A stretch of DNA of 64,000 nt from Martinezella lusitana (GTDB lineage Bacteria > Pseudomonadota > Alphaproteobacteria > Rhizobiales > Rhizobiaceae). Shown piece by piece: positions 50,161 through 64,000 of this stretch. The translations under genes and the position numbers were made by a program. The DNA lies in assembly GCF_016901135.1 (NCBI RefSeq), contig NZ_JAFEVL010000001.1, forward strand, positions 1-64,000, read 5' to 3'. Each line of letters opens with the position of its first letter. Position 1 is the stretch's first letter. The notes under the pieces were generated by a model, which made no database searches, was not told where the DNA came from, and was given only the letters and a program-made list of their open reading frames with translations.

Positions 50161-51335
50161 TGTGCGACAAGCGCGGCCGCGCGGCTGCGGGCTTCCTCGT
50201 CGGCGGCAAAGACGGCGTCCATGGTTTCGGCGCTGCCTGTCGCGATCATCTGATCCATGACGGCCTCGGCGATGTCGGCCATCTCCAGGAAGCCGATGCG
50301 GCCGTCCACGAAGGCATGGAAGGCGATTTCCTCGGCCGCGTTCATGATCGCGCCCTGCAGGCCGCCGCGCTCGAGAGCGGTGCGGGCAAGACGCAGCGCC
50401 GGGAAGCGAACCTCGTCCGGCGCCTCGAAATCCAGCCGCGCCAGCTTGGCGAAATCCAGCCGATCGACGCTGAGCTTCGTGCGGGCGGGGTAGGTGAGCG
50501 CGTAGCCGATGGCCGTGCGCATATCGGGACAGCCGAGCTGCGCCAGCACCGAACCATCGCTGTAGCCGACCATGGAATGAATGACGGATTGTGGGTGAAC
50601 GACGACTTCGATCTGGTCGGGGCGGACGTTGAACAGGTGCTTGGCCTCGATCATCTCCAGCGCCTTGTTGAACATCGAGGCGCTGCCGATGGAGATCTTG
50701 AAGCCCATGGACCAATTGGGATGGGCGCGGGCAATCGTCGGCGTGACATTGGCCATCTGCTCGCGCGACCAGGTGCGGAAAGGGCCGCCGGACGCGGTGA
50801 TGATGATGCGCTCCACCGCATGCTGCTGATCATCCTCCAGCGCCTGGAAAATGGCGCTGTGCTCGCTGTCGACCGGGATCAGCCGGCCGCCGCCTTCGGC
50901 AACGGCACGCACGAAAAGTTCGCCGGCCGAGACGAGACATTCCTTGTTGGCAAGGGCGATATCGGCGCCGCGCCGGGCGGCCGCCAGTGTCGGGGCGAGG
51001 CCGGCCGTGCCGACGATCGCCGCCATCACCCAGTCCGATGGTATGGAGGCGGCCTCGATCAGGGCATTTCTGCCGGCACCAACAGCGATGCCGGTACCAA
51101 CAAGCGCGTCTTTCAGTGCCTGATAGCGATCCTCATTCGCGGTAACCGCGAAAGCCGCGCCGCAGGCTTTGGCCTGCTCGGCCAAGAGGTCGATATTGTC
51201 ATGCCCGGTGATCGCGGCGATGTCGAAGGCTTCACGTCCGCCCAGCTGCGCAATGACATCGAGCGTATTCTGGCCGATCGAGCCGGTCGAACCCAATATC
51301 GTCAGGCGGCGCCGCCCCTTGCTGCCGGTGGTCAT
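50142..51335 (-). CDS. dxr: 1-deoxy-D-xylulose 5-phosphate reductoisomerase
   Basis: A 397-residue enzyme converting DXP to 2-C-methyl-D-erythritol 4-phosphate, the first committed step of the non-mevalonate isoprenoid pathway. The NADPH loop ILGSTGSIGQNTLDV opens the protein; the metal-ligand and substrate region VDSEHSAIFQ and the loop GPFRTWSREQM are present. It stands alone, converging on hemA. In most rhizobia a single dxr of this type is found in the core genome, so this is an orienting marker. Confidence 0.96.
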   Translation of the reverse strand: MTTGSKGRRRLTILGSTGSIGQNTLDVIAQLGGREAFDIAAITGHDNIDLLAEQAKACGAAFAVTANEDRYQALKDALVGTGIAVGAGRNALIEAASIPSDWVMAAIVGTAGLAPTLAAARRGADIALANKECLVSAGELFVRAVAEGGGRLIPVDSEHSAIFQALEDDQQHAVERIIITASGGPFRTWSREQMANVTPTIARAHPNWSMGFKISIGSASMFNKALEMIEAKHLFNVRPDQIEVVVHPQSVIHSMVGYSDGSVLAQLGCPDMRTAIGYALTYPARTKLSVDRLDFAKLARLDFEAPDEVRFPALRLARTALERGGLQGAIMNAAEEIAFHAFVDGRIGFLEMADIAEAVMDQMIATGSAETMDAVFAADEEARSRAAALVAQKEKAA

Positions 51336-51535
51336 TCAGGTATCCGCATATTGCCGAAATTCCCTAAGGCTCTACAGGGGAACGCGAAGTGCGGCAAGTG
51401 TGATGCCATGCAACCCCACTTGCCCGCCGATGCGCGTTTAAGGCGAAACCACTGATTCGATGATATTTTCAGCCAATTATTGAACCAAATGCGAAGTGCT
51501 GCGTTTTCCGTCCACTCGAATGCGGAGGGTAGTGG

Positions 51536-51802
51536 ATGGTTTTCAAAGCGGCGACATTTCACGGCATGGAGCTCGATCTGGAAAGTGAGCAGTCCAGACG
51601 CTCGGCACTGGAATCCACAGTTGCCAATGCGCTCGCCGTCGCCGGCGGGATCGATGCGTCCGATGTCACGGTGACTGCCGCCGGCCAGGAGATCCGCCTG
51701 GACGGCACCGTCGCCACCCTGCAGGAAGTGAAGCGGGCGACTACGGTGGCGGAGTCGATCCCCGGCGTCAGGCTGGTGAGGAACAGGATCGCGGTGGGGT
51801 GA
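51536..51802 (+). CDS. BON-domain protein
   Basis: An 88-residue protein consisting almost wholly of one BON domain: ALESTVANALAVAGGIDASDVTVTAAGQEIRLDGTVATLQEVKRATTVAESIPGVRLVRNRI, with the conserved glycine in IRLDGTV. BON domains bind phospholipids or osmotic-stress envelope components. It has no signal peptide. GGAGGG lies 8 bases ahead of the ATG. No partner gene adjoins it. Confidence 0.78.
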   Translation: MVFKAATFHGMELDLESEQSRRSALESTVANALAVAGGIDASDVTVTAAGQEIRLDGTVATLQEVKRATTVAESIPGVRLVRNRIAVG

Positions 51803-52183
51803 TATCCCGCTCGTGCCCTTGTCTTTCGCTGAACATGGGTTCGCGATTCATCTCATTTTTCTGAGGGGAAACTCATGGGAAAGATGATGGCGGCCGTCGC
51901 GCTGGCGGGCATCCTCGTGGGCGCTCCATCAGTATAGCGCAGAAGGTTCACGTGATGAGCGCCTGCAAGCAGCATAATTGCGGCTCGGAGCGGATCGCCG
52001 TCATGTACAATACAGAAATGCGGTAGCGTTCAATGGCGGTTATCGTTGGCTCTGCGTGCCACCGGGCCGGCAGCCACGACCAACCACACCCTGCGGAAAG
52101 AGTGGAAAACCTCGCAGCGTCACTTGCCGAGCCAGCCCTTTCGGTGCCCCGCTGATTTGTAATTGTGGCGGAGGGTCAAGCTG
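51803..52183. other. Gap holding an Ivy-like relic
   Basis: No intact gene is visible in this 381-base gap. It contains the decayed lysozyme-inhibitor-like sequence listed next and the ribosome site (GGAGGG at 52166) of the following gene. Confidence 0.5.
51875..52026 (+). pseudogene. Relic of an Ivy-like lysozyme inhibitor
   Basis: A good ribosome site (GAGGGGAAACTC) and the ATG at 51875 begin a signal-peptide-like MGKMMAAVALAGILVGAPSV that meets a stop at 51935. In another frame, from 51940, comes HVMSACKQHNCGSERIAVMY, which resembles the CKPHDC motif of Ivy lysozyme inhibitors, ended by TAG at 52024. The middle of the protein is missing. I infer an internal deletion plus frameshift. The family match is by motif only. 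Confidence 0.5.
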
Positions 52184-52753
52184 ATGTACCGAACGACGAC
52201 AGAAGAAGAGCGCGAATTCCTAGCGCTGTTTGGCCTGGTTGTGATGGACTGGAATGTTCTTGAGGCAGCCATTGAACTGATCACTTACCGTCTCGCAGGT
52301 GGCGGCGGCCACATAGAGGTACTGACCGGTCATCTGGGCGCGCTCGGCATGAATGAAGCTATGAAGACTTTGTCGACTGAGTTCGGCCCTGCGGATCTAC
52401 GTAACGATATTGCCCACCTTGCTGAAATGTTCGACCGCCTTCGGGAATACAGGAACTATTATGTCCATGGAATCAGGCTGCTAGGAGCGGGAGGTGATAG
52501 CGGTCCGGTGATCGGGCTTAGTCAGAGCACAACATCCAAATCTCGACTGAAGCTACATCAGGCCATTGTTACGAAGGACGAGTTGATGGTCCTGTCTGGG
52601 CAACTCGATGAATGCAAGCGTTTTGCCGATTGGCTCACCGTCAAATTATATGGGATCGAAGGGCCAGAGATGCCGATCTTACCCCGCCCGGACACGCCTG
52701 CGTTGCCGGTTAGATTAAAAAAGCCAACGATCTTTCTGACTGACCAAAGATAG
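52184..52753 (+). CDS. Hypothetical protein with HEPN-like motif
   Basis: A 189-residue soluble, largely helical protein. Its central segment MFDRLREYRNYYVHGIRLL contains R-N-x3-H (RNYYVH), a HEPN-type Rx4-6H motif, and the length and helix pattern are compatible with a HEPN-like fold. HEPN proteins are often RNases in defence or toxin systems, but no antitoxin partner is next to it. GGAGGG stands about 13 bases before the ATG at 52184. It lies in the accessory stretch between core genes and the transposon. Confidence 0.5.
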   Translation: MYRTTTEEEREFLALFGLVVMDWNVLEAAIELITYRLAGGGGHIEVLTGHLGALGMNEAMKTLSTEFGPADLRNDIAHLAEMFDRLREYRNYYVHGIRLLGAGGDSGPVIGLSQSTTSKSRLKLHQAIVTKDELMVLSGQLDECKRFADWLTVKLYGIEGPEMPILPRPDTPALPVRLKKPTIFLTDQR

Positions 52754-52846
52754 CTGCGGCGCACAGTGAGCGATAAGCCTGTCAAAACACTAGCGCGCCC
52801 GTGAGCAGGCCTACGAGAGCGCCTATGCCCTGAAACGCTTCCCACA

Positions 52847-53046
52847 TCAGTGAAAACCATCTCCAGCATGATCCATGCAGCGATCGGCGCGCCGAACATA
52901 GGTCTCAACCGTGCGGGGATCTCGATGCCGGTCACTTCCATGATGTGCGATATGCTGGCCCGGTTCTCCGCGGCCGACGCGAAGAAGCCGGCGCGCAGCG
53001 AGTGCCCAGAAGCTTCTCGACATCGAGGCCGGCCGTCTTAGCGCGG
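52847..53046 (-). pseudogene. C-terminal relic of a tyrosine recombinase
   Basis: On the minus strand two frames together read AGLDVEKLLG, then HSLRAGFFASAAENRASISH, then TVETYVRRADRCMDHAGDGF and a stop. These are the box-II arginine/histidine region (HSLRAGF) and the tyrosine region (VETYVRRA) of phage-type integrases. At least two frameshifts interrupt it, and the N-terminal catalytic half is missing. It marks an older integration event near the site now next to the Tn7-like element. Confidence 0.75.
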
Positions 53047-53053
53047 AAAGCCT

Positions 53054-53353
53054 TTATCCAGATAGTACCCGAACGCTTGGCAGAATGTGTTTTTGTGTTC
53101 GATTTTTCTGGATATCGGCGACGATCTGGTGAGCGCGCTTCCTTGCACGAGAAATGACCGCATCTTTGCTGATCGCATACTGGATCATTGCTGAGCCAAT
53201 AGTGATCTGCATAGTTTCGTCGTTTAGTTGCATTCCGCAGACGCCTTGACCGACGGCCAGAATGGCGACCTTTTCAATCCATAACGATTCCGGCTTCGCG
53301 AGCGCTGGCATGGCGACCAGTGCAAATCCTATGCCCAAAATAGCAGCTCGCAT
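53054..53353 (-). CDS. Small predicted secreted protein
   Basis: A 99-residue protein with a clear Sec signal (MRAAILGIGFALVAMPALA) and a mature part with one cysteine, GVCGMQLNDETMQITIGSAM, and a basic C-terminus. GGAGGAGAG lies just ahead of the ATG. No family is recognised. Its 3' end abuts the integrase relic, so the last codons may not be original. Confidence 0.6.
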   Translation of the reverse strand: MRAAILGIGFALVAMPALAKPESLWIEKVAILAVGQGVCGMQLNDETMQITIGSAMIQYAISKDAVISRARKRAHQIVADIQKNRTQKHILPSVRVLSG

Positions 53354-53394
53354 CTACTCTCCTCCATCGCCTTATGGAGCAACGTGGCTGAGCA

Positions 53395-53479
53395 TGTCGC
53401 ATGTTGCAATTCATGTCGCATAGATTCGCGGTGATTCGCCGGGAAACCAACGGGGGCCAGTTGCAACAAGAATGCGACA
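53395..53479. repeat. Cluster of TGTYGCA motifs at the presumed element end
   Basis: TGTCGCA at 53395-53401 and 53414-53420, TGTTGCA at 53402-53408, and inverted TGCAACA at 53462-53468 and TGCGACA at 53473-53479. Tn7/Tn402-type elements start with TGT and carry repeated transposase sites, so this cluster may be the terminus. The inverted pair TGTTGCAA/TTGCAACA at 53402-53409 and 53461-53468 adds a dyad. Confidence 0.5.
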
Positions 53480-53492
53480 CGAGCTGGAGCGG

Positions 53493-53595
53493 TTTAATAG
53501 GTTTGTCCCAGAGGGGATAGATCGTAGTTGATTTTGTTGCGTTTTTTACCCTCGTTTAATTTGATATGTCCCTGACGCTTTAATAGGTCTGTCCC
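53493..53595 (+). repeat. Three direct repeats, candidate TnsB-binding sites
   Basis: TTTAATAGGTTTGTCCC (53493-53509), TTTAATTTGATATGTCCC (53555-53572) and TTTAATAGGTCTGTCCC (53579-53595); the last two are followed by TGA. The spacing of 62 and 24 bases resembles the separated transposase-binding sites at one end of Tn7. This is inferred; no counterpart was seen at 59-64 kb. Confidence 0.6.
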
Positions 53596-53621
53596 TGAAA
53601 TCGCCCCCAGAATTAGGGCAA

Positions 53622-53648
53622 TAAAAAAAGGCTCCGAATCGGAGCCTT
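53622..53648 (-). terminator. Intrinsic terminator of the transposition operon
   Basis: On the minus strand AAGGCTCCGA pairs with TCGGAGCCTT (arms 53628-53637 and 53639-53648), followed by a run of seven T. It sits 28 bases beyond the tniQ stop, as expected for the end of the tnsABC-tniQ transcript. Confidence 0.85.
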
Positions 53649-53675
53649 CGAAAACGTCGTAAGATGATGGTGGCG

Positions 53676-55520
53676 CTAAGTCGTTACTCGGTCAAAAGTG
53701 AACTTGTCCAGATCGCTCCGCCAATAGTACCTTCCTGGCCGGGACCCGGGGTCGAAGCTTGGCTCAATGCCGAGCAATTCCATGCGTCGCGCAACGACAT
53801 CGGCACGTGTGCCATAAATCGAGGCGATTTCGGCAACCGAAATATGAACGCGCTGAAAATCCTCGAGAGCCTTCGGTTCGATGAACGACTGCATCTGGCG
53901 CGACGACCGATTGAGTCTCCTGACCGACGAAAGGACCCCGCTCGCGACAAGAGGGTAGGCTTTGTACTTCGTGGTATTCAATAAATTGGCGGCTTCCGCG
54001 ATCGTTAGAAGATCGGGACCAATCTCCTGCTTGACTAAAAGACGTCGCTTCTCTTGGGCCTCCTTCAAATTCACGAAGAGATTGACGAACGTGGGGCCGG
54101 TGCCGGTCCGGGCAACACCATGAATTTGGCCGTCCAGAATCATTTCAACAACTTCATTTAGCTGGCAGTTGCACCTGTGGGCCACCCTCAAGATTGGCAG
54201 GTAGCCATCGAGATCGATCGCCGTCTGAGCCCGTTCAAACAGGCGACTTTGAAAGTCGGTCAGCTCTTGCCTCCTGATGCGGGTGTAGATGCGAAGACCG
54301 CCACGATCTGCCTCGACGCGAGGCAAAAAACCGGCATCGATAATCTCGTGCAGCCTTGGCCCCCTCAAATCCAGAATGGCCGCCGCCTCGGTAAGGGATA
54401 GCGTATCCTGCGCTGCCTTCAGGATGGGCTTCGCCAGCTCCGCGTCGAAGGAAACCCTTGCCGTTGTTGCCGTTCTCGCTTTCAGAAGTCCGGCTTTCGT
54501 CAAAAGCTCTACGATGCGCGGTTCCCTCAGGCCGTATTCGACACTCGCTGAGCGTACGGTGTGACGGTAGCGCCTGCGCGTGGGCAGAATACAGATGTGG
54601 CCTTCACCCAATGGCATGTTTCTTTCCGCCAGGTCCTGAAATAGCTCGACGAGGGTTGTATAGGCCGGAACATCGCGATTGCGACGAAGCCAGCACAAGA
54701 TTGGTTCCATCGGGGCCGCCTCGTCTTCCAAGGCGGGGCTTTCACCGAGCACAAGTTCCGAAACCAATTCCGAGATGTAGGCTTCGCCCAGCTTTACGGC
54801 GTTGAATCCGTACTCCGCATCGTCAAGGTGCTCGAACGAGCCATTTTCGCTAACCGCAGCGCCGCGATATCGACGCAGAAAGCGGCCGAAATGCTTGCTA
54901 AGGTCGGCGACTACATACGCCTCGAGACCATCAAGGAAAGGAAATGACCTCCCTCCCCGGATGCGGCTGGTGAGATAGATGTCCAGCTCCCTCGGACGAT
55001 CGCCGTCGGCATCCCGATCATTGTTGGCAAACTCTTGTGGATGGGACCGAACGAAAGAAGCGAAATCGTCCTGGCCGTCATCACAGGCCACTTCCGTGAT
55101 GCGCGACCCGTGGAGTGGGCAGGTTCGAATTGCCTTGGTTTCCCACCATGCTCGCACATAAGGGCGGGAGCCGATGCGGCCTTCTCCCGCCCGAAAGTCG
55201 TTCTCGACGCAACTGACACAGAAGCGGTGAGTCTTTCCGCGGCGATACTCGCGGCTGAACACCGCATCGCCCAACCCGAAGCAAAGCTTCTTGTCGAGCG
55301 TTCGCGAAGCGTAGCGAGCAAGTTTTGTGTGGTCTTCTCCAGACCATTCAGCCAGGAGAGCCATGGCAACGGAATCGCCGCGGGAGATCGCGAACGCTGT
55401 TGTTTCCGTGCAGTCCAGGAATGCCTCAAGCGAGGGATAGCCGTTTGCCGTGGAGAGGCGGGATGCGAAACCAAGCGGCGTTTCACATTCGTGAAACATG
55501 ATCGAGATCGGCAGTTTCAT
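53676..55520 (-). CDS. TniQ/TnsD-like target selector
   Basis: A 614-residue TniQ-family protein. The N-terminal TniQ domain (about residues 1-150) begins ISIMFHECETPLGFASRLS and includes a zinc-type motif C101-V-S-C104...C134-P-L-H137. The C-terminal part has repeated helix-turn-helix-like segments (LSLTEAAAILDLRGPRLHEIIDAG, LTIAEAANLLNTTKYKAYPLV, HISVAEIASIYGTRADVVARRME), as expected of a sequence-specific DNA-binding target selector. TnsD-type proteins direct Tn7 to an attachment site. It starts 25 bases after tnsC and is last in the operon. Confidence 0.85.
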   Translation of the reverse strand: MKLPISIMFHECETPLGFASRLSTANGYPSLEAFLDCTETTAFAISRGDSVAMALLAEWSGEDHTKLARYASRTLDKKLCFGLGDAVFSREYRRGKTHRFCVSCVENDFRAGEGRIGSRPYVRAWWETKAIRTCPLHGSRITEVACDDGQDDFASFVRSHPQEFANNDRDADGDRPRELDIYLTSRIRGGRSFPFLDGLEAYVVADLSKHFGRFLRRYRGAAVSENGSFEHLDDAEYGFNAVKLGEAYISELVSELVLGESPALEDEAAPMEPILCWLRRNRDVPAYTTLVELFQDLAERNMPLGEGHICILPTRRRYRHTVRSASVEYGLREPRIVELLTKAGLLKARTATTARVSFDAELAKPILKAAQDTLSLTEAAAILDLRGPRLHEIIDAGFLPRVEADRGGLRIYTRIRRQELTDFQSRLFERAQTAIDLDGYLPILRVAHRCNCQLNEVVEMILDGQIHGVARTGTGPTFVNLFVNLKEAQEKRRLLVKQEIGPDLLTIAEAANLLNTTKYKAYPLVASGVLSSVRRLNRSSRQMQSFIEPKALEDFQRVHISVAEIASIYGTRADVVARRMELLGIEPSFDPGSRPGRYYWRSDLDKFTFDRVTT

Positions 55521-55545
55521 CGGAACTTCCTTTCGAATGCCGTTA

Positions 55546-56511
55546 TCAGGCGAGGTCCGCAAGTGCATGACGGGGGACGAGATCGCGCCAGCGGGCGGCG
55601 GTAAAGACGTTGTCACGGGGCATGCACCCGGTGTCGCGTTCGTAGTTCCGCGCGAACTCCTTGAGCGAGAGCGACTTTCGCCCTCGCTCAAGCGCACGGA
55701 AGCATGCCTCCTGCACCATCGCGATCATCGAGCCGAACGCGCCGTTGCCCGCCAGACACAGCTTCTCCGGGAAGTCGTCTTCCAGAAGCTCTGCGGACAA
55801 GCCCAGGCCGCATCCTTCGGTGGTTACCTTCGCCAAAATGCCGGTGATCCACTGCGTGTCCGCGGGGCAGTTAAGTGCGTCGTAGCGCAGGACGCGGGAA
55901 CGGTTGGCAAGCTGGGGGTCGCCCCTGAGCAGTTCCGCCAGCTCGGGAACGCCGGAATAGATCGTGTGCAGAGGCCAGTCGGCAATCTGGATCAAGCTTT
56001 TCAGCGTGTCCTGCACATGGCGGATGGCCGTCGCAGTGTTGTGCCGCATGACGTGTTGCATTTCGTCGATATGGAGGTACTTCACGCCACGCTCGCGAAG
56101 CTGGACCTTGAGGACCGCAAAGAGCGTGTGTTCTGTCATTCGCTCCTTTGTGGGCAATCCCAAAGCCGTTAGGATCGCGATCGCCAAGGCCTTCGTGTTG
56201 CAAGGCCGCGGCGCGTCGATGCTCAGCACTGGCGAGACGGTCTCGCCGTGCTCGTTTAGGTACGGACGGAATTCCGGCATCGTTTCGAAGTGGTGCTGGA
56301 GCGAGCGGGTCTTCCCGCTACCCGAATCCCCGATAACAAACAGGGCGCGCCGTTTGGAACCAGCACCCAGTTCGCAGTCTTCGACGTTGACGGCCATCTC
56401 CCGGAGATAGGAAGCCAGCTTCGTGTCGCGGCCCGTCGTGAAATAGCTACCGCGAACGCCAGCCTTGAGGGCCGCGAAGTCGGAAGTTTCGTTGGACTTG
56501 GCGTTGGTCAT
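55546..56511 (-). CDS. tnsC: TnsC/TniB-like AAA+ transposition regulator
   Basis: A 321-residue AAA+ ATPase that links target selection to the transposase. Walker A GDSGSGKTRS lies at residues 61-70 and Walker B YLHIDEMQHV at about 145-154; sensor-1-type TIYSGVPEL follows. It forms ATP-dependent filaments on DNA in Tn7 and Tn402 relatives. Its ATG is two bases downstream of the tnsB stop and TniQ follows 25 bases on, so all are coupled. It is shorter than Tn7 TnsC (555 residues) and of TniB size. Confidence 0.93.
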   Translation of the reverse strand: MTNAKSNETSDFAALKAGVRGSYFTTGRDTKLASYLREMAVNVEDCELGAGSKRRALFVIGDSGSGKTRSLQHHFETMPEFRPYLNEHGETVSPVLSIDAPRPCNTKALAIAILTALGLPTKERMTEHTLFAVLKVQLRERGVKYLHIDEMQHVMRHNTATAIRHVQDTLKSLIQIADWPLHTIYSGVPELAELLRGDPQLANRSRVLRYDALNCPADTQWITGILAKVTTEGCGLGLSAELLEDDFPEKLCLAGNGAFGSMIAMVQEACFRALERGRKSLSLKEFARNYERDTGCMPRDNVFTAARWRDLVPRHALADLA

Positions 56512-56512
56512 G

Positions 56513-58696
56513 TCAGTCGTCCTCGTTGTAGTCGAGAGTGGAAACGATAGGGGCCGGCCGCGACGGAGGACCTTGCTCGGTCGTGGGTGCGTTCGCGCCA
56601 GGGGTGGATTTCAGGTGGTCGATGGGCAAGGCGCGCCTCGGCGGCCCGCGGAGGGGATCGGCGGGAAGTGCAATCTCCGACACGAGTTCGGGCAAGGTGC
56701 CGGATCGACGGGTGCCTGGCTTCCAGCCGCGCATGACTTCACGCTCCATGCGCTCACGTTCTTCGGCATCGGGAATGGCGGGGTTCAGATGGGCGCGGAT
56801 GGTCGCCGATTCTCCGGCGCGCCGAAGCTTGTTGACGGCTCCGTACATCGCTGCCATCCCGTCTTCCGCCTCGGCGGCATTGTGCGCGAGTTCCTCCTTG
56901 CGGGCCGCGATCCACTCAGCGAGCGAAATGTCATCGTTGATGCCGACGGTGTTTTCGACGGTGAACCAGCCTTCGTTGCCTTTCACCGCGATCCAGCGGA
57001 CGTTCTCGGGATCGGTCTTGATCTCGAACTCATTCTTGCCGTGGTGCATGCGCTGGACGTTGAGTTCGTCGCTTCCGTAGGTGATGCACTGGTAGGTGAT
57101 CCCGTCGTCTGAGATCGGCCGCTTCGAAGGCTCGCCGAAAACGTGGAGCATTTCCTCGTCCGACGGCACCTGCCGAACGCGATACTCCTGCGTGGCGCGG
57201 ACCCAGGCATTGTGCGGGGAATTCCCGCCGAGCGAGGCATGTGGCTTGTTGTGGTAGATGTCGCAGATCGCGTAGGTGAACATCCGGACGAACTCGTCCG
57301 TGGTTACCGCGGCAAATTCTTCCGGATCGTAGTCCCCCTTCTCGGCAACCGAACCAAAGGTGCGACCATCGAAGAACTGGGCGATCATCGGGCCGACGGA
57401 ATGGAAAAGGCTCTCGATGAACGGACGGCGCGCGGGGTCGCCTGCGGGCGGACAGGTCGGGTTCACGAGGGCGGCCTTGAAGACCGTGCGCGTGCGGTCG
57501 GCGATGAACGCCGATCCGTTGTCGGAATAGACTTCCTTCGGTCTCAGCATGCCGATCCAGGGCGTTTTTGCGCCCACCGATTGCGAAAGCAACCGCTTGT
57601 CCGTCATGATCATGCGAAGCGCCGCGATGGCGGCGTTTGCAGTCGGATTGAATGTTGCCCTGAGCGCGAGGACATAACGGGTCGCAACGTCGATCGCCGC
57701 CACGAACCAGATACGCACCTTCGGAATGTTCGCGCGCACCTTCTCTGGGAGGCCCTCGTATAGACCCGTTTCCACGAGCAGCGTCATGAGGTCGACATTG
57801 ACTTCGTCAATCTCGACACGCTGTCCGGGAGCCAGGATGTCGTAGGTCCGCAGGTTTCTGGAGTACTTGTCGACCGCCCACTTTTCGCCGTGACGGCTGG
57901 CGTCTTTCTCGAACTCGTCGAACCGGTTGATCATCGATTCGAACTTGGTTCTCGAAACCTTGTGCAGCTTCGTGGTCCGCGTCTGGTTGATCTCGAAAAG
58001 CTCGGCGCAATACAGCAGGTAGCAGTGAGCCTTCGTGGGTTTCTTGCGCGACAGATACCGACGCGCGCCACGGTGGGCGACCGCCATGCTCTCGGGGCAG
58101 CTCATGAAGAGGCGCTTGCCGGGGCCGTGATGACGATGCGCCAGCGCGAGCGTCTTCCTGCCGCATCCCATGTAATCGGCATAGTCGCGGTTGAACTGGC
58201 GCACCGACGGCGCACCGAACGAGATGGCCCCCTGATCCCCCCGCTTGCGGCGCTCGCCCTTCGTACCCTTTTCGATTTCATCCGCCCACTGGTCGAGCAG
58301 AGGCTGAAGCTTCTCTTCGGAGCGCGGGAGCGACTTTCCGGCTCTGAGGCACTCGTCCTCGTAACGCAGGATAAGCTTCTCGCGAAAGCTCGGCAGGGCG
58401 CGTTTCTCGGGATCGAGGCCTTCGAAGGTCTCGTCGCCCCAGATGAGGCGCAGTTTCTGTTCCGGGATGCTGTTGTAGCGATAGCGGATCGCCGCCCGCT
58501 TTTCCGTCAGTTGGCGGTGGATTTCCGCATGGCTCATAAAGACCTCGCGCCCGTCATCTTCGTGACGCACTACGTAGCCGTCCCCATCGGCGCGCAACGG
58601 AATGTAATTCTGGTTGGCGCAGGTGAAGAGGTCGGTGTCATCCATCTCGACAATGGAGTGGTGGTAGACGAGCGCAGGCAGGGCGTGGTTCGGCAT
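56513..58696 (-). CDS. tnsB: TnsB/TniA-like DDE transposase
   Basis: A 727-residue DDE transposase of the Mu/TnsB family, which cuts and joins the 3' transposon ends. The catalytic acidic residues are at about D297 (VEIDEVNVD), D392 (YSDNGSAF) and E428 (PFIESLF) on an RNase H fold, followed by a Mu-type beta-barrel and a proline/charged C-terminal tail that would contact TnsC. The N-terminal 1-250 is a helical end-binding region. The gene has the order and spacing (51 bases after tnsA) of Tn7-like modules. Confidence 0.93.
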   Translation of the reverse strand: MPNHALPALVYHHSIVEMDDTDLFTCANQNYIPLRADGDGYVVRHEDDGREVFMSHAEIHRQLTEKRAAIRYRYNSIPEQKLRLIWGDETFEGLDPEKRALPSFREKLILRYEDECLRAGKSLPRSEEKLQPLLDQWADEIEKGTKGERRKRGDQGAISFGAPSVRQFNRDYADYMGCGRKTLALAHRHHGPGKRLFMSCPESMAVAHRGARRYLSRKKPTKAHCYLLYCAELFEINQTRTTKLHKVSRTKFESMINRFDEFEKDASRHGEKWAVDKYSRNLRTYDILAPGQRVEIDEVNVDLMTLLVETGLYEGLPEKVRANIPKVRIWFVAAIDVATRYVLALRATFNPTANAAIAALRMIMTDKRLLSQSVGAKTPWIGMLRPKEVYSDNGSAFIADRTRTVFKAALVNPTCPPAGDPARRPFIESLFHSVGPMIAQFFDGRTFGSVAEKGDYDPEEFAAVTTDEFVRMFTYAICDIYHNKPHASLGGNSPHNAWVRATQEYRVRQVPSDEEMLHVFGEPSKRPISDDGITYQCITYGSDELNVQRMHHGKNEFEIKTDPENVRWIAVKGNEGWFTVENTVGINDDISLAEWIAARKEELAHNAAEAEDGMAAMYGAVNKLRRAGESATIRAHLNPAIPDAEERERMEREVMRGWKPGTRRSGTLPELVSEIALPADPLRGPPRRALPIDHLKSTPGANAPTTEQGPPSRPAPIVSTLDYNEDD

Positions 58697-58747
58697 CGAG
58701 GTCTCTTGACTCCGTTGAAAACGATAGGGCAGCGCGGGAAAGGACAG

Positions 58748-59599
58748 TCAGGACGGCACGGTCAGCCAGCTCAGGTCCGAAATGCGCCCCCGGGAGAGCG
58801 GGACCAGATGGCCACGATCAATCAGTTGCCACACGGCATCGCGCCGACTTCCGACATGGCGGCAGCCTCGGAGCAATTCGCCGAACCGGAAACGACCGGC
58901 GAGACGTTTCGCGATCGATAGGGTGGTTTCGTACTCGATCGTGTCGAAATGCTCGCGGGCGCGCAGGATGTCGTGGGCGTTATAGAAAGCCTCGTAGGTC
59001 GCATCCTCTTCCGTCATGAGGCGCAGGTCGTCCGCCACATGGGAAAAGTCTTGTCTGGCGATCCTGTTGAACATTTCGAGGATTTGCGCCTGCTTGCGGG
59101 CGTGTTTCACCGCGATGGCCACGCGGAAACCGTCGTTGAACACCACGTAGTAATCGAAGGTATGGTCGTGGATCACGCCATCGTCGTCGGAGAACGAGAG
59201 GACGGGGAACTGAGAATGAAGTTCCCGTACATCGGCGCGCCCCTGCATGATCGTCGAGACACGGTGTTCCAGCTCGCTCTCGTGGAACACCACGGTGCCG
59301 TTGAAGATCGTGAAACCGCGCGCCGTCTTCGCCTGGCGAAGCGCCGGACGCCGCGTCGCGTGTCCTTCGGTCGGCTCGTTCCAGAAGAGTGGGATGTCGC
59401 CGCGCTGGCTGGTGCGGCCGCGGTATTTACAGTCCTCCGTCTCGGTGCGGCCGTGCTTACCCTTCAGCTGGATTACGGGGGCTTCGTATTGCCGAGAAGA
59501 CGCAGCCATAGGCGCAGGCGCACGGCGACGGTCGACAAGAAAGCCGAGTCTGGCCTTCTTGAGCGCGATATTACGGGCAACCGTGTGGGCGATGTTCAT
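58748..59599 (-). CDS. tnsA: TnsA-like endonuclease subunit of the transposase
   Basis: A 283-residue protein with the TnsA restriction-like nuclease fold at about residues 100-170: acidic HESELEH (E107-E111), D149 (HDHTFDYYVV) and the later AIAVK lysine (K165), the E-D-(A/Q)-x-K arrangement of TnsA. In Tn7, TnsA cuts the 5' ends, giving cut-and-paste transposition. A C-terminal helical region (NAHDILRAREHF to LTVPS) probably contacts TnsB or TnsC. The N-terminal 1-95 is basic and not recognised. A palindrome lies 20 bases upstream. TnsA presence distinguishes it from Tn402-type elements. Confidence 0.8.
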   Translation of the reverse strand: MNIAHTVARNIALKKARLGFLVDRRRAPAPMAASSRQYEAPVIQLKGKHGRTETEDCKYRGRTSQRGDIPLFWNEPTEGHATRRPALRQAKTARGFTIFNGTVVFHESELEHRVSTIMQGRADVRELHSQFPVLSFSDDDGVIHDHTFDYYVVFNDGFRVAIAVKHARKQAQILEMFNRIARQDFSHVADDLRLMTEEDATYEAFYNAHDILRAREHFDTIEYETTLSIAKRLAGRFRFGELLRGCRHVGSRRDAVWQLIDRGHLVPLSRGRISDLSWLTVPS

Positions 59600-59618
59600 G
59601 CTCGGCTCCTTCCACCTT

Positions 59619-59631
59619 GTCGCTAAGCGAC
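59619..59631. promoter_or_regulatory. Palindrome upstream of tnsA
   Basis: GTCGCTAAGCGAC is a perfect dyad (six bases each side of one) 20 bases before the tnsA ATG. Its 11-base core TCGCTAAGCGA recurs at 60649-60659 as TCGCTTAGCGA. A shared repressor or transposase site is inferred. Confidence 0.45.
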
Positions 59632-59775
59632 CTGCAAGATTGGCTGGAGGAGATGCCTTTTCGGAAGAGGACTAGCCTCGTTTCGAGAAGTCAAAACCTG
59701 CCATTCGCAGTGTGGTTCCGCCGTCCGCGGGGACGGTGATCCCCGCGTCAGGCAGCTATCTTCCGGTTGCTGTGC

Positions 59776-59934
59776 TTACAGGCCGTGGCGGCCCGGGCGG
59801 TCGGATACGGAGCAGATCATGCGGGCGATCTCCTCCTCCAACGGGATGGTCGTCAGGTCGTCGAGGGTGGGAAGATCGATGTCGGCCGTTCCGATAAAGA
59901 AAGCGGAATCGAGAATGTGTTTGGACAGATACAT
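59776..59934 (-). CDS. Small protein of 52 residues upstream of tnsA
   Basis: An open frame beginning MYLSKHILDSAFFIGTADID, acidic in the middle (DLPTLDDLTTIPLEEEIARMI) and ending GRHGL. An AGGAG ribosome site is 10 bases ahead of the ATG, and the third codon positions look gene-like. It was too short for the usual length cut-offs. Its position just upstream of tnsA on the same strand suggests part of the element, perhaps a regulator, but no motif supports that. Confidence 0.5.
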   Translation of the reverse strand: MYLSKHILDSAFFIGTADIDLPTLDDLTTIPLEEEIARMICSVSDRPGRHGL

Positions 59935-60312
59935 GGGCGCACTTCTCCTGTGGCCGCTCGCGTAGGCGGCGGCGTGCGTTGAAACGGATTGGAAAGCGGA
60001 GCTCCGTCCGGCGTCTACCTAGACCGGCCAGCAGGAGCAAATGCAGTCAGGCGTCGCCGCCTGGCTATTCGCTCCGGTTCACGGGCGGTGGGGCAGATGG
60101 TTTCCGGGGCAAGATGTGCCCCGGAAACCGACGTCCGGCGTGCGGGAGAACGCGGATCGACGATCGCCGTTAACGCTTTACGCGTCATACGGCGATGTGG
60201 GCCGGTTTTCCGTTTGATTTCCGGGGCGTGCCCATCTACAAGTACGTCATGGCTTAAATCCTCAAATGTGGGCCATAGGCTGACACCTGCGCTAACGGGT
60301 CCAGCCACTCCA

Positions 60313-60342
60313 AAACGGACCGCTCTGAACAGCGGTCCGTTT
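60313..60342 (-). terminator. Terminator downstream of the FtsH-like gene
   Basis: Perfect 12-base arms AAACGGACCGCT (60313-60324) and AGCGGTCCGTTT (60331-60342), with TTTT beyond the stem on the minus strand. It likely ends the transcript of the AAA+ protease gene and any downstream frame. Confidence 0.75.
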
Positions 60343-60561
60343 CTATCTCCGGCACCAGACAACTGGCACCGTTGAGTGGCATGTAGCCCTACACCCCCGG
60401 CAATATCAAGACCCCAACCTTGAGCGAAAAATGCCGATCGCGGCCGAGATTCAACTCTGACGCGTCCAGCCGATTTTCGACTCATCAGCTCTCCGCTGCA
60501 GACGGGCAAGCGACGCGCAAGGAAATTCGCGGAAAACCGGAGGCCACTGATTTCCTTGGAA

Positions 60562-60951
60562 AATTCTAGAACTCGTTGGTGAATCCTTGGAGAGGCAAAA
60601 GAGCAGCTGCGACGCGCAGGTGTCGCAAGGATTCGATGGTCCAAGGTCTCGCTTAGCGAGTTCTTGAATTCTCGTTTTGGATGTACCGGGCCTCTGTTCT
60701 CGCAGACGGCGTCGAGAAGCCAAGAAGCCTTGCGTGGTCTCGATTTCGAAGGCGTCGACACTTGACATGTGCCTTCCGAGAAAGATTGCCAGACCAGCGC
60801 GAGCCGTCTGCATTTTCCCGAGTTATCCGGAGAGCTCGCGTTAGCCAAACCCTCAGCGAATTCCTTGATTTCATGTCTTGCCATGACGCGATCTCCTTTC
60901 TTTGCCAAGGATTCGGGAAAGGATTCCCGATTTTAATAATTCAAGAACTCG
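60562..60951. repeat. Three copies of AATTCWAGAACTCG
   Basis: AATTCTAGAACTCG at 60562-60575, its inverted form at 60657-60670 and AATTCAAGAACTCG at 60938-60951. Related CAAGGATT/AATCCTTG pieces lie nearby. The function is unknown; options are protein-binding sites or old element ends. Confidence 0.55.
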
Positions 60952-61093
60952 ATGCGGCAATTGATCGAGATTTCCTTTGCTCAGGCGTGTTGGCGGACTG
61001 ACTTGAGCGGAGGTTCATTCGACAGCTCCGCGCAACCTATGCCGGTAGATGCAAAAATTAACCTTTCTGAAATCACTCGTAAAAAAAGCGATT

Positions 61094-63067
61094 TCAGGCT
61101 CTTCGAAGGCCAGGTGGCTCATTCAAACAGCCGGTTGCGTCGCTCGAAGCGGCATCTTGCAATGCGGTGCGAACGTCATCCGCCGAGAGCATACGCTCCT
61201 TCATGAGCCTTTCGTGCAGGGTCAACAGGACGCTTCGATGGTCTTGGAGCAGGGACTTTGCTCTGTCGAACTGCGTTTTCAGCATGGCGTCCACCGCCTG
61301 CCGGAGACCCTTTCGCTGCGATCGGAACGCCGACAGTCGTTCGGGAGTATCGGCCGTTTCCACCGCGAGGCTGCCGCCCAAGCCCCATTTGATTTCCATC
61401 ATCGTCGCCAACTCGGTTGCCTGGTTCAGGTCCGCGTGCGGGTGACCGGCCGCTGCGGTCTCGAAGTCTCCGAACATCAGCTCCTCGGCCGCGGCTCCCG
61501 CGAGCAGCACCGCGATCTTGTTCTGGAAGTAAGTCGATGTTTTTCGGGCGAACATCCGTTCCTGGAACCTGGCCCCTCCCAGGGGCTGGACGACCAAGTC
61601 CTCTCGAACGGTTTTGTTGATCGAAACGGAGATCAGGGGATCGGCATCAACCAGCACACCGACGATGGCGTGGCCGAGCTCGTGGACGGCAACGAGTCGC
61701 TGCATGGCAATCGGGATCGTCCGAGTGGGTGGCAATGCTCCCTTGACGTCGGAAAGGATAATATCGCGGCCCTGCCGGCGAGCGCTACGTCGGGCCTGCC
61801 GGACACCCTTTTCGATATCCGCTCCAGACCACCCTTCCGACGCCGAAGCGACGATCCGGATTTCCTCGTCCGAAAGGCGGTCGCCAAGGTAGAAGCGGAA
61901 GATGCCCGAACGGGTTTCCTCGTCGGGAAGACCGATTTCGAAATGGCGTTCGAGGCGGCCGGAGCGCAGCAATGCGGCATCGATCAGATGAGGATAGTTC
62001 GTAGCGCCAATGACGATGACGCCGTCACGAGCTTGCCCTCCGTCCAAAAGCTCGAGGAGGCTATTGATCACCTGACGAGCATAGGACGAGTTGCGACCCG
62101 CGTCCTCGGTCCGGCTCCCGATGGAATCGAGCTCGTCGATCAACAGGATGCTCGGCTTCGCAGCTTCGGCGTCTGCGAAGCTCTTCCGCATAGCCGTCAG
62201 CATGTCGCCAAGGTAGCCGGAACCCGAGGATTGCCACTGAGCCGCCGATGCGTAGACGAACTTCGCTCCGCAGGTGCGCGCCAAGGCTGACCCGAACGAG
62301 GTTTTGCCCGAACCCGGCGGACCATACAGAAGGACGCCGCGATCAATGTCGTCCCAGGTGATCTTTCCGTCACGCCACGCTTCCACGTCGTCAGAGAGTT
62401 CCAGTCCCCAAGACTTCGCGTCACCGTAACCCGAGAGTTCGTGCAGGGTCGGCCCGGAAGGGACGTCCGTCGAAACACCCGTATTGGGATACAGACGCAG
62501 CCTCCGAAGAGCGGCAGGCAACGGACGCCCGTGTCGAACGGCGATCGCTGCGTGGATCGGGGGCTGACTGGCGAGGAGAGCAGCGTCTTCGTCGGTGAGA
62601 TTCCCGAAGCCCATGTTGCGTGCTGCGATGCGGTGATCGTCGGCCGAAGGAGATGGTAGCTCCGCGACGACGTCTGCCGCGAGCCGGATTTCGTTGGCCA
62701 AGAGTTTCTTGTCGGCTACCAGAATGATAGCGCGTCTGAGCCTCTTTAGTTTCCTGAATTCCATGAACCCTTCATCCACGTCGGTCTCGTCAAGGACCGG
62801 GACGACGTAGTTGTAGCCTTCCACTTTGCTCAGTGGCAGGGTTCCCTCGAGCAGAAATCTGGCCGCGCGTTGGTACGCATTGAAGTTGCCGCCCGGTGGC
62901 AACGCGAATGCCACCACGAAACCCGATCGCTTCTTGAGGAAGTGCCGGATAACCCGGGACATGGTGATGACCGCCAGATGGGTAGGCAGCGACAGTGCGT
63001 CGCTATCCTCGTCGTCAAAGGGGTCGATGTATGTTTTAGGGAAGCGTCTGCTTTTCTTGATGGTCAT
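61094..63067 (-). CDS. Membrane-less FtsH-like AAA+ zinc metalloprotease
   Basis: A 657-residue AAA+ protease. Walker A GPPGSGKTS lies at 249-257, Walker B ILLIDELDS at 307-315, and the second region of homology GATNYPHLIDAALLRSGRLER carries the arginine fingers. The M41 peptidase site HELGH is at 462-466 and the third zinc ligand in HADLNQAT (about 545-552). Unlike FtsH, no membrane segment is visible and the N-terminal 230 residues are novel, presumably substrate-binding. It follows the TnsA-like paralogue gene by 39 bases on the same strand. A role in remodelling a transposition complex or in defence is inferred. Confidence 0.8.
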   Translation of the reverse strand: MTIKKSRRFPKTYIDPFDDEDSDALSLPTHLAVITMSRVIRHFLKKRSGFVVAFALPPGGNFNAYQRAARFLLEGTLPLSKVEGYNYVVPVLDETDVDEGFMEFRKLKRLRRAIILVADKKLLANEIRLAADVVAELPSPSADDHRIAARNMGFGNLTDEDAALLASQPPIHAAIAVRHGRPLPAALRRLRLYPNTGVSTDVPSGPTLHELSGYGDAKSWGLELSDDVEAWRDGKITWDDIDRGVLLYGPPGSGKTSFGSALARTCGAKFVYASAAQWQSSGSGYLGDMLTAMRKSFADAEAAKPSILLIDELDSIGSRTEDAGRNSSYARQVINSLLELLDGGQARDGVIVIGATNYPHLIDAALLRSGRLERHFEIGLPDEETRSGIFRFYLGDRLSDEEIRIVASASEGWSGADIEKGVRQARRSARRQGRDIILSDVKGALPPTRTIPIAMQRLVAVHELGHAIVGVLVDADPLISVSINKTVREDLVVQPLGGARFQERMFARKTSTYFQNKIAVLLAGAAAEELMFGDFETAAAGHPHADLNQATELATMMEIKWGLGGSLAVETADTPERLSAFRSQRKGLRQAVDAMLKTQFDRAKSLLQDHRSVLLTLHERLMKERMLSADDVRTALQDAASSDATGCLNEPPGLRRA

Positions 63068-63106
63068 CGTGGCCTCGGTGTTCGGAATTGGAGCGCGGAC
63101 TAAAGG

Positions 63107-63718
63107 TCACGCACATATCCGTCTCACCGTGGTCTCAGGACCGATCAGGCCAGCATCGAGGTCCACCGAGATGAAGCCCTGAATGATCAGGCTTGCAAAC
63201 CCGGCCACCGCTTTCGTTTCCGTGAAGGCCGCCAGGCTTTCCGCAACGGTCAGGGTACCGTTTTCGTCGAGCCCGGCGAGCAAACGTAGCCGATCTCCGA
63301 GCGGCACCTGGTAGTTGGTGTACCTTAGGAGGTCCTTCGCGTTTCGAAGTCTCGGCCCGCCATAGATTTCATCCCGCCGAAGCTGGCGGTAGGACATCCC
63401 CATTTTGCGTGCGGAAGCCGCCAGCAGGTCGATGTCGACATCCCTGTCCGGCGCGTCAACGAGTTCGAGGCAGCCATCGGCATCGAGGATTTCGAAATCC
63501 GGCACGTGAGCTTCGTCCCCGTAAGGAAGCGAGGACGGCAGGCATTTCCAATGAATGATGGCAGGATCGAAATCGAAAATACAGGCGGCGTCACGCGACA
63601 CCTGCGATCGGTAGATGGTGACACCGTTACACTTGATGGTACCAGCTGGATAATAGGTTCGGATCGACGCGGTTTTTCTATTGGCGCGCAACGTCAGCGC
63701 GCGGGACGCAATACCCAT
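63107..63718 (-). CDS. TnsA-like paralogue lacking the usual catalytic lysine
   Basis: A 203-residue protein that parallels the second half of the 283-residue TnsA-like protein. A nuclease-like segment HVPDFEILDADGCLELVDAP (D74; the lysine after the second strand is missing) is followed by RNAKDLLRYTNYQVPLGDRL and IIQGFISVDLDAGLIGPETT, matching in order NAHDILRA and LIDRGHLVPLSRGRIS of the first TnsA. I infer a diverged TnsA paralogue, probably not a nuclease. GAGGTGCTCTT precedes the ATG. It is first in a transcript with the FtsH-like protease, so it may be its adaptor. Confidence 0.55.
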   Translation of the reverse strand: MGIASRALTLRANRKTASIRTYYPAGTIKCNGVTIYRSQVSRDAACIFDFDPAIIHWKCLPSSLPYGDEAHVPDFEILDADGCLELVDAPDRDVDIDLLAASARKMGMSYRQLRRDEIYGGPRLRNAKDLLRYTNYQVPLGDRLRLLAGLDENGTLTVAESLAAFTETKAVAGFASLIIQGFISVDLDAGLIGPETTVRRICA

Positions 63719-63818
63719 AAGAGCACCTCAATGACCTAATAGATGATCGGAGCCGCCGACGGGCGGTTCGAAGATCAACGTATTCGTATGAGGGCGGCGC
63801 GCTGTTTCATGACGTGAA

Positions 63819-63847
63819 CATTTAGAGAACATCGCGTGCACCGTCAA
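63819..63847 (-). promoter_or_regulatory. Candidate promoter for the TnsA-paralogue/protease pair
   Basis: On the minus strand TTGACG (63842-63847) and TAAATG (63819-63824) are 17 bases apart, an acceptable sigma-70 arrangement. It gives a leader of about 100 bases before the ATG at 63718. Confidence 0.45.
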
Positions 63848-63918
63848 GAGGTCGCACGCGGAAAAGTTGAATTTTGTTGCCATTCAAGGTGCGAGGTTAC
63901 TGTCTGACAATCCGCGAC

Positions 63919-64000
63919 CTATGACAAAAACGGTGCGTCAGGCATATCAAACACCGTCTCGAACTCCCAACTCTCTTGCCAAGCGGAATCGATGTCGAGC
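63919..64000 (-). CDS. C-terminal end of a gene from the right edge (partial)
   Basis: A minus-strand frame enters from the window edge and ends at a TAG (63919-63921), encoding LDIDSAWQESWEFETVFD then MPDAPFLS. Residue composition and GC3 are gene-like. No family can be named from 26 residues. It lies on the same strand as the rest of the element. Confidence 0.45.
   Translation of the reverse strand, partial: LDIDSAWQESWEFETVFDMPDAPFLS

Follow-up and report, generated by a model that had tools for sequence, protein, structure and literature searches.

The first 64,000 nucleotides of contig NZ_JAFEVL010000001.1 of Martinezella lusitana (the window, meaning the whole stretch of DNA that was analysed) reach into a Tn7-like transposon which carries, in addition to its own transposition (tns) genes, a pair of adjoining genes for a soluble FtsH-type AAA+ zinc protease and a predicted paralogue of the transposon endonuclease TnsA. 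In the 39 rhizobial Tn7-type loci examined, no other cargo family is as frequent as this pair, and it is a single unit that has been recruited repeatedly and swapped between unrelated tns lineages. Tentatively, we read the pair as an accessory module that acts via its TnsA-fold partner on complexes bound to DNA, probably those of transposition, and removes them or keeps them in check. As far as our literature search reached, such a two-gene protease module has not been described.

The protease and its TnsA-like partner

The protease gene (61094–63067, minus strand) encodes 657 amino acids, and its assignment draws on the open reading frame (ORF) list, Pfam, NCBIfam, an alignment and a structure model. 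Pfam recognizes an AAA domain (E 3e-33, amino acids 245–379) and a Peptidase_M41 domain (E 2e-18, amino acids 454–633), and the NCBIfam model for FtsH gives 184.7 bits, which does not reach its equivalog cut-off of 600. The Walker A motif GPPGSGKT of a putatively active AAA+ domain lies at amino acids 249–256 (62300–62323, minus strand, coordinates derived from the ORF), and the zinc site HELGH at amino acids 462–466 (61670–61684, minus strand, from the alignment and ORF-derived coordinates). Throughout an alignment of 35 sequences, the Walker A lysine, D311 and E312 of Walker B, the arginine fingers R368 and R371, the zinc-site residues H462, E463 and H466, as well as D546, which we take to be the third zinc ligand, are invariant, and the AAA+/M41 active site is intact.

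No membrane helix was detected in the protease, whose highest 19-residue Kyte–Doolittle value is 1.44 versus 2.36 in the FtsH of the same genome, and this hydropathy rules out an identity with membrane FtsH; a soluble FtsH-like AAA+ protease is also what an earlier note, made from the letters of the window alone, had recognized here. The protease shares with FtsH the AAA+ and M41 domains, the HExxH motif and the third ligand, but differs in its solubility, in an extra N-terminal part and in being borne by a transposon. Its AlphaFold model (predicted local distance difference test, pLDDT, 85.9; predicted template modelling score, pTM, 0.58) matches soluble FtsH fragments most closely (2ce7, Z 30.4, root-mean-square deviation (rmsd) 7.4 over 390 residues). 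Because strands and helices alternate at residues 25–195 of this whole-protein model, and five of the matches listed, all to proteins with two AAA domains (Rix7 twice, NVL, p97 and Cdc48), begin at residues 21–27, the N-terminal part resembles a second AAA+ domain that is degenerate and has no Walker A. The extra N-terminal part had been described in the earlier note as new and 230 residues long; its presence stands, but its length is corrected to approximately residues 1–205.

Among PHROGs, 12 families match the protease, the best of them (E 4e-49, amino acids 239–639) being a family of unknown function and the others covering the AAA+ part. A known PADLOC system was ruled out, as the PADLOC matches are confined to the AAA+ part as well; IetA of the IetAS system matches amino acids 243–430 (E 2.5e-28). 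The partner of IetA is a subtilisin, whereas no subtilisin gene adjoins the protease described here, its M41 domain is fused to the AAA+ domain, and its neighbour is the TnsA-like protein.

The partner gene (63107–63718, minus strand) precedes the protease gene on the same strand, with 39 bp between the two ORFs, and encodes 203 amino acids with a predicted nuclease-fold N-terminal domain and a winged-helix-like C-terminal domain. NCBIfam TnsA_like_Actin matches it weakly (E 3e-5, under the model cut-off), a profile–profile comparison with the TnsA proteins of these elements gives a probability of 62% (E 7.5e-5), and zero families of PHROGs match it. Structure prediction, which the earlier note had proposed for this protein, was more telling: the fold search with the AlphaFold model (pLDDT 90.4, pTM 0.83) returned four PDB matches at E < 0.001, all of them Tn7 TnsA and covering both domains (best 9bw1, 1t0f and 1f1z; Foldseek E 2e-7), unlike a PDB sequence search with the TnsA-like profile, which yielded nothing convincing (best E 0.31). 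Comparison of the model with Tn7 TnsA gave a VIA Z of 9.4 over 187–198 residues with an rmsd of 4.3–5.8. By these models, the partner is a TnsA paralogue with the two-domain TnsA fold.

The catalytic residues of the TnsA endonuclease are Glu, Asp and Lys. At the nuclease positions of the partner, Glu and Lys are replaced in the alignments and Asp is kept (D74), and with these two catalytic residues missing the partner is predicted to be nuclease-dead. The spacing of 39 bases and the absent lysine had already been pointed out in the earlier note, with which ORFs and alignments agree, the glutamate being missing too. Since D43 and D88 are also invariant, a residual or altered nuclease site may be present. 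In comparison with Tn7 TnsA, the partner has the same fold over both domains, yet its catalytic Glu and Lys are gone, and its gene stands beside that of a protease and is additional to the element's own tnsA. Both genes of the pair are under purifying selection, with ratios of nonsynonymous to synonymous substitution rates of 0.11–0.16 against loci L024 and L025.

Recurrence of the pair in Rhizobiaceae and across the order

A census of 39 Tn7-type TniB loci among the matches listed (to E 3.9e-14) was chosen by Pfam TniB and not by the pair, with an upper limit of 92 bits, set by us to leave out Tn5053-type TniB, and after removal by hand of ten fragment rows (G059:C3, three of G384, two of G050, G086, G226:C324, G373:C2 and G264). 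Within a fixed interval of 36 kb upstream and 4 kb downstream of TniB, TnsC is present in 39/39 loci, TnsB and TniQ in 38/39 each and TnsA in 33/39, and the protease is found in 25/39, the TnsA-like partner in 21/39 and a metallophosphoesterase in 6/39. When only the 32 loci are counted whose cargo side extends for 13 kb or more, the protease is found in 25, the seven loci judged too short having been named by hand. A first count gave 27 proteases and 24 TnsA-like partners out of 39, with extra sequence for three elements (G372, G316:C9 and G154) chosen because the pair was already known there. The next real cargo clusters in that count were PIN-domain proteins (18), a mix of methyltransferases and unknown proteins (9), DUF6634-like proteins (8) and metallophosphoesterases (7), the smaller clusters being annotated in part only; unlabelled clusters with high counts (20, 12, 11, 10 and 10) were rejected, being shadows on the antisense strand of the TnsB, TnsC and protease genes.

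Co-occurrence across 394 genomes of the family, a search which the earlier note had suggested, points the same way. The TnsA-like partner occurs in 58 genomes and TnsA in 52, with both in 40, the partner alone in 18 and TnsA alone in 12 (Fisher p 5e-30); the TnsA profile for this count was built from pair-adjacent TnsAs and leans to co-occurrence, which the TniB census does not. Together, these two results rule out a chance neighbourhood of pair and tns genes, and the link between the pair and Tn7-like elements is statistical, not accidental.

In the Rhizobiaceae sampled, 59 pair loci lie on genome contigs, and tns genes are within 10 kb in 29 of them (three via TnsA alone); 11 more have tns genes on the same contig within approximately 35 kb, which brings the total to about 40/59. 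The distances beyond 10 kb and the figure of 29/59 were worked out by hand, with the contig of L082 assumed. At L047, L068 and L073, TnsC is on the contig of the pair but 69–151 kb off, several other loci end at contig edges, and at L046 and L080 the pair is found in genomes without a TnsC match. On plasmids, 16 records have a TnsA-like match, and the protease is usually next to it in those inspected; in two plasmids (L022 and L023) no protease follows.

For the order level, 387 genomes were used, and 63 specific protease rows were hand-picked among the matches listed. The protease lies within 30 kb of 18 of the 28 stronger Tn7-type TnsC matches. In 16 of 40 regions, which belong to Rhizobiaceae and five other families, it shares the strand of tnsA or tnsB and ends 0.6–3.2 kb ahead of that gene (at most 1.9 kb in 13/16), and the TnsA-like partner is present in 8/16. 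Such positions prove little, because the tnsA side is where cargo sits anyway: in 69 elements, 67 proteases are on that side, 38 on the same strand as tns and 29 on the opposite one. Divergent TnsA-like partners were recognized at this level as well (5 sequences, hhalign 97%, E 1e-10). Among 46 order-level and plasmid loci, the partner goes with tns genes, being present at 9/21 tns-adjacent and 1/25 other protease loci (Fisher p 0.0027); the association is weaker in a broader count limited to loci with 7 kb of flanking sequence in each direction (30 + 37 versus 8 + 24, p 0.08).

Inheritance and possible roles of the pair

Congruence between proteins was measured as the correlation of their pairwise distances across elements, host kinship being ignored. 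TnsB is highly congruent with TnsC (r 0.89, 63 elements) and TniQ (r 0.86, 60 elements), and the protease is congruent with its TnsA-like partner (r 0.76, 43 elements). With TnsB, the correlation is 0.18 for the protease, weak yet above all 199 shuffles, and -0.05 for the partner. The census alone gives 0.92 for TnsC–TnsB (38), 0.03 for protease–TnsB (27) and 0.64 for protease–partner (23). Individual elements show the swap directly. Compared with the window, L025 has the pair at 85% and 71% identity, but TnsB, TnsC and TniQ at 19–24% (TnsB 19%); conversely, L028 has these tns proteins at 77–89% and the pair at only 53% and 39%. Because the two partners co-evolve with each other and hardly with TnsB, the pair is regarded as an exchangeable plug-in unit, and a core tns subunit bound to one lineage is ruled out by the little or no congruence with TnsB. 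In a second type of tns locus, an unrecognised protein takes the place of TnsA ahead of TnsB (L025:14186-14956, L053:13258-14001); that of L025 has no Pfam match and reads PD...E-Y-V, with the usual lysine absent.

In the role tentatively preferred here, the soluble AAA+ zinc protease and the nuclease-dead TnsA paralogue, acting as its adaptor, would form one module. The TnsA-fold partner would bind DNA or transposition intermediates and pass the proteins sitting on them to the AAA+ motor for extraction and degradation, and transposition complexes might thereby be cleared or limited, as host ClpX does for MuA and, by hypothesis, for CRISPR-associated transposases. The physical interaction of the pair, the adaptor role of the partner and the substrate are what we infer. 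A dead TnsA copy next to an intact unfoldase–protease is the layout expected of an adaptor and its machine. Elements whose TnsB proteins are unrelated are served by a near-identical pair, which makes it more likely that a structure in the DNA or some common feature is recognized than one particular TnsB. It is conceivable, and held with the same reserve, that Tn7-like transposons across the order bear their own interchangeable unfoldase–protease aimed by a dead TnsA, which would replace the need for host ClpX and target either their own post-integration complexes or those of competitors.

ClpX is a host protein which disassembles MuA complexes. The earlier note had drawn this analogy and suggested that a protease with a TnsA-like adaptor, encoded by the transposon, could limit or take apart the transpososome, its main alternative being a cargo for defence or target immunity. 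The protease resembles it, by analogy, as an AAA+ unfoldase tied to transposition complexes, as ClpX is for MuA and type I-F CRISPR-associated transposases; it differs in belonging to another AAA+ class and in being carried by the transposon, with its role a proposed one. According to PMC12326709, ClpX gave approximately 4-fold more integration by wild-type PseCAST in human cells, an effect hypothesised there to be disassembly of the post-transposition complex, and tool builders relied on the cytotoxic ClpX until ClpX-independent transposases were evolved. How the highly stable complex of Tn7-like and CRISPR-associated transposition is dismantled is poorly understood. A protease that the transposon itself encodes, together with its TnsA-fold partner, opens this step to direct testing and could yield a dedicated factor. 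If the proposed role is true, a protein-degradation module would be a standard transposon accessory; if the pair instead serves in defence or in the exclusion of other elements, it would still be a two-gene protease module and the commonest cargo in the 39 loci examined.

Several observations weigh against a role in transposition. Besides the weak or absent congruence of the pair with TnsB and the TnsB identity of 19% at L025, 20 of 25 protease loci (25 examined of the 44 without a TnsC match) have no tns genes within approximately 10 kb, and 25 of the 46 order-level and plasmid loci have none nearby. The earlier note had regarded frequent occurrence of the pair far from Tn7-like elements as speaking against its proposal, and this is mostly not seen for the pair in Rhizobiaceae, but it is for the wider relatives of the protease. 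When all 157 proteases are pooled, tns genes are near 41/113 with the partner and 16/44 without it (p 1.0), a flat result that may perhaps arise because many loci are cut short. In the window, 1.5 kb separate the pair from the tns genes and the two do not share an operon, and several protease loci elsewhere adjoin defence genes. As well, the swaps between tns lineages and the tns-less protease relatives weaken the case for an adaptor specific to TnsB.

Nearly as likely as a role in removing transposition complexes is that the pair is a defence module and a preferred cargo, in which the partner would sense foreign DNA (ends or branches) and activate the protease against phage or host proteins, with the metallophosphoesterase and PIN proteins as further effectors. 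The annotated neighbours favour this: on two rhizobial plasmids, a cyclic-oligonucleotide-based antiphage signalling system (CBASS) with HORMA (L014:9188-11965) and an S8 peptidase with an ATPase and a KwaB-like protein (L017:10866-19938) stand beside the module, TIR and SIR2 genes are near it at L184, and HEPN_AbiU2 and OLD/Gabija-like genes are in the window's own element. Swapping between elements would be normal cargo behaviour, and Tn7-like elements carry many defence systems according to Benler 2021 (PMC8649781), a cargo which the pair resembles in lying inside such an element. Against defence stand the frequency of the protease in the census, other cargo clusters reaching at most 9 except PIN, the restriction of PADLOC matches to the AAA+ part, and the nature of the partner, a TnsA paralogue which is concentrated at tns genes in the order-level loci, though not in the pooled 157. 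In term searches, 'protease' and 'peptidase' are absent from the main text of PMC8649781, supplements being outside the scope, and in the Tn7 survey PMC10293859 'protease' appears as a reagent only. The earlier note knew of no described system of this composition, and likewise no FtsH–TnsA transposon system was found in full texts, titles and abstract starts, supplements and most subscription papers being outside the scope.

Exclusion of rival Tn7-like elements is an unlikely explanation, in which the dead TnsA would enter the complexes of competitors and deliver them to the protease, so that the resident element is shielded from insertion or takeover. It would account for the TnsA mimicry, for the frequent carriage by the Tn7-like elements sampled and for how weakly the pair co-evolves with the TnsB of its element, and it predicts self-avoidance. 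Least probable of all is that the pair is cargo with a stabilising or regulatory function and no part in transposition, such as a toxin–antitoxin-like set with PIN and metallophosphoesterase, for which the PIN gene in 18/39 elements and the recurrent metallophosphoesterase genes could be cited, but the congruence of PIN with the protease is weak (r 0.22, p 0.03, 18 elements) and lower than with TnsB (0.39), so PIN does not accompany the pair in the way that the two genes accompany each other.

The carrier element and its other genes

The carrier of the pair is a Tn7-like transposon with TnsA, TnsB, TnsC and TniQ, inverted ends with repeated sites and a 5-bp duplication. It spans 28,088 bp from position 53485 of the window to C5:81572 on the contig, the right end being outside the window. 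The left end (53485–53600, plus strand) has repeated TTTAATAGGTYTGTCCC sites at 53493 and 53579, which are the only 2 matches in the window at no more than 3 mismatches versus 0.02 expected, and inverted, less exact copies are located near the right end at C5:81505 and 81548 (2 and 4 mismatches). The element starts with TGGA and ends with TCCA, and is flanked on both sides by the target-site duplication CGAGC (53480–53484, plus strand, with the second copy directly after C5:81572). Whereas the earlier note had placed the pair beside a Tn7-like module, both ends are located around it, and a position outside the element is ruled out.

The element adjoins a tRNA-Arg(cct) gene (L003:1612-1688). 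An empty-site search in 11 genomes gave a tRNA-side match in 11/11 and no joined match to both flanks; the left flank is complete in the window's own genome alone, with one partial match of 51 bases in G788 among these genomes. Rhizobium freirei PRF 81 (L024) is 95.7% identical over the 10.5 kb compared, starting exactly at 53485. No RNA family of Rfam reached the gathering threshold at positions 51300–64000.

All tns genes are on the minus strand: the target selector TniQ (53676–55697), the TniB-type AAA+ regulator TnsC (55546–56511), the transposase TnsB (56513–58696) and TnsA (58748–59599), in which the ESxLE and VK motifs are kept and model matches are weak. Upstream of the pair, a metallophosphoesterase gene has its 3' part in the window (63919–64000, minus strand; C5:63919-64980, 353 amino acids). 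Further cargo of the element includes an OLD/Gabija-like ATPase with a TOPRIM domain (L002:13735-15762) and an AbiU2-like HEPN protein, HEPN_AbiU2 (L002:6806-7642).

Among cargo of related elements, the PIN-domain protein (ending FPLPGLYxP...W, e.g., G157:C3:39238-39780) is the second commonest after the pair. Calcineurin-like metallophosphoesterase genes lie near the protease on either side, also beyond Rhizobiaceae (L013-L018, L041, L062, L065, L066, L068, L072-L076, L078, L079, L082, L184-L186 and L189). In many loci, the gene for a small DUF6634-like protein immediately precedes or follows the protease gene, whether or not the TnsA-like partner is there; this protein was recognized by Pfam at L225:8660-8989, by eye at L211, L221 and L227, and by clustering in 8 census elements. 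In addition, the genome of the window (G000) contains three more TniA/TniB-type loci, on contigs C4, C12 and C17.

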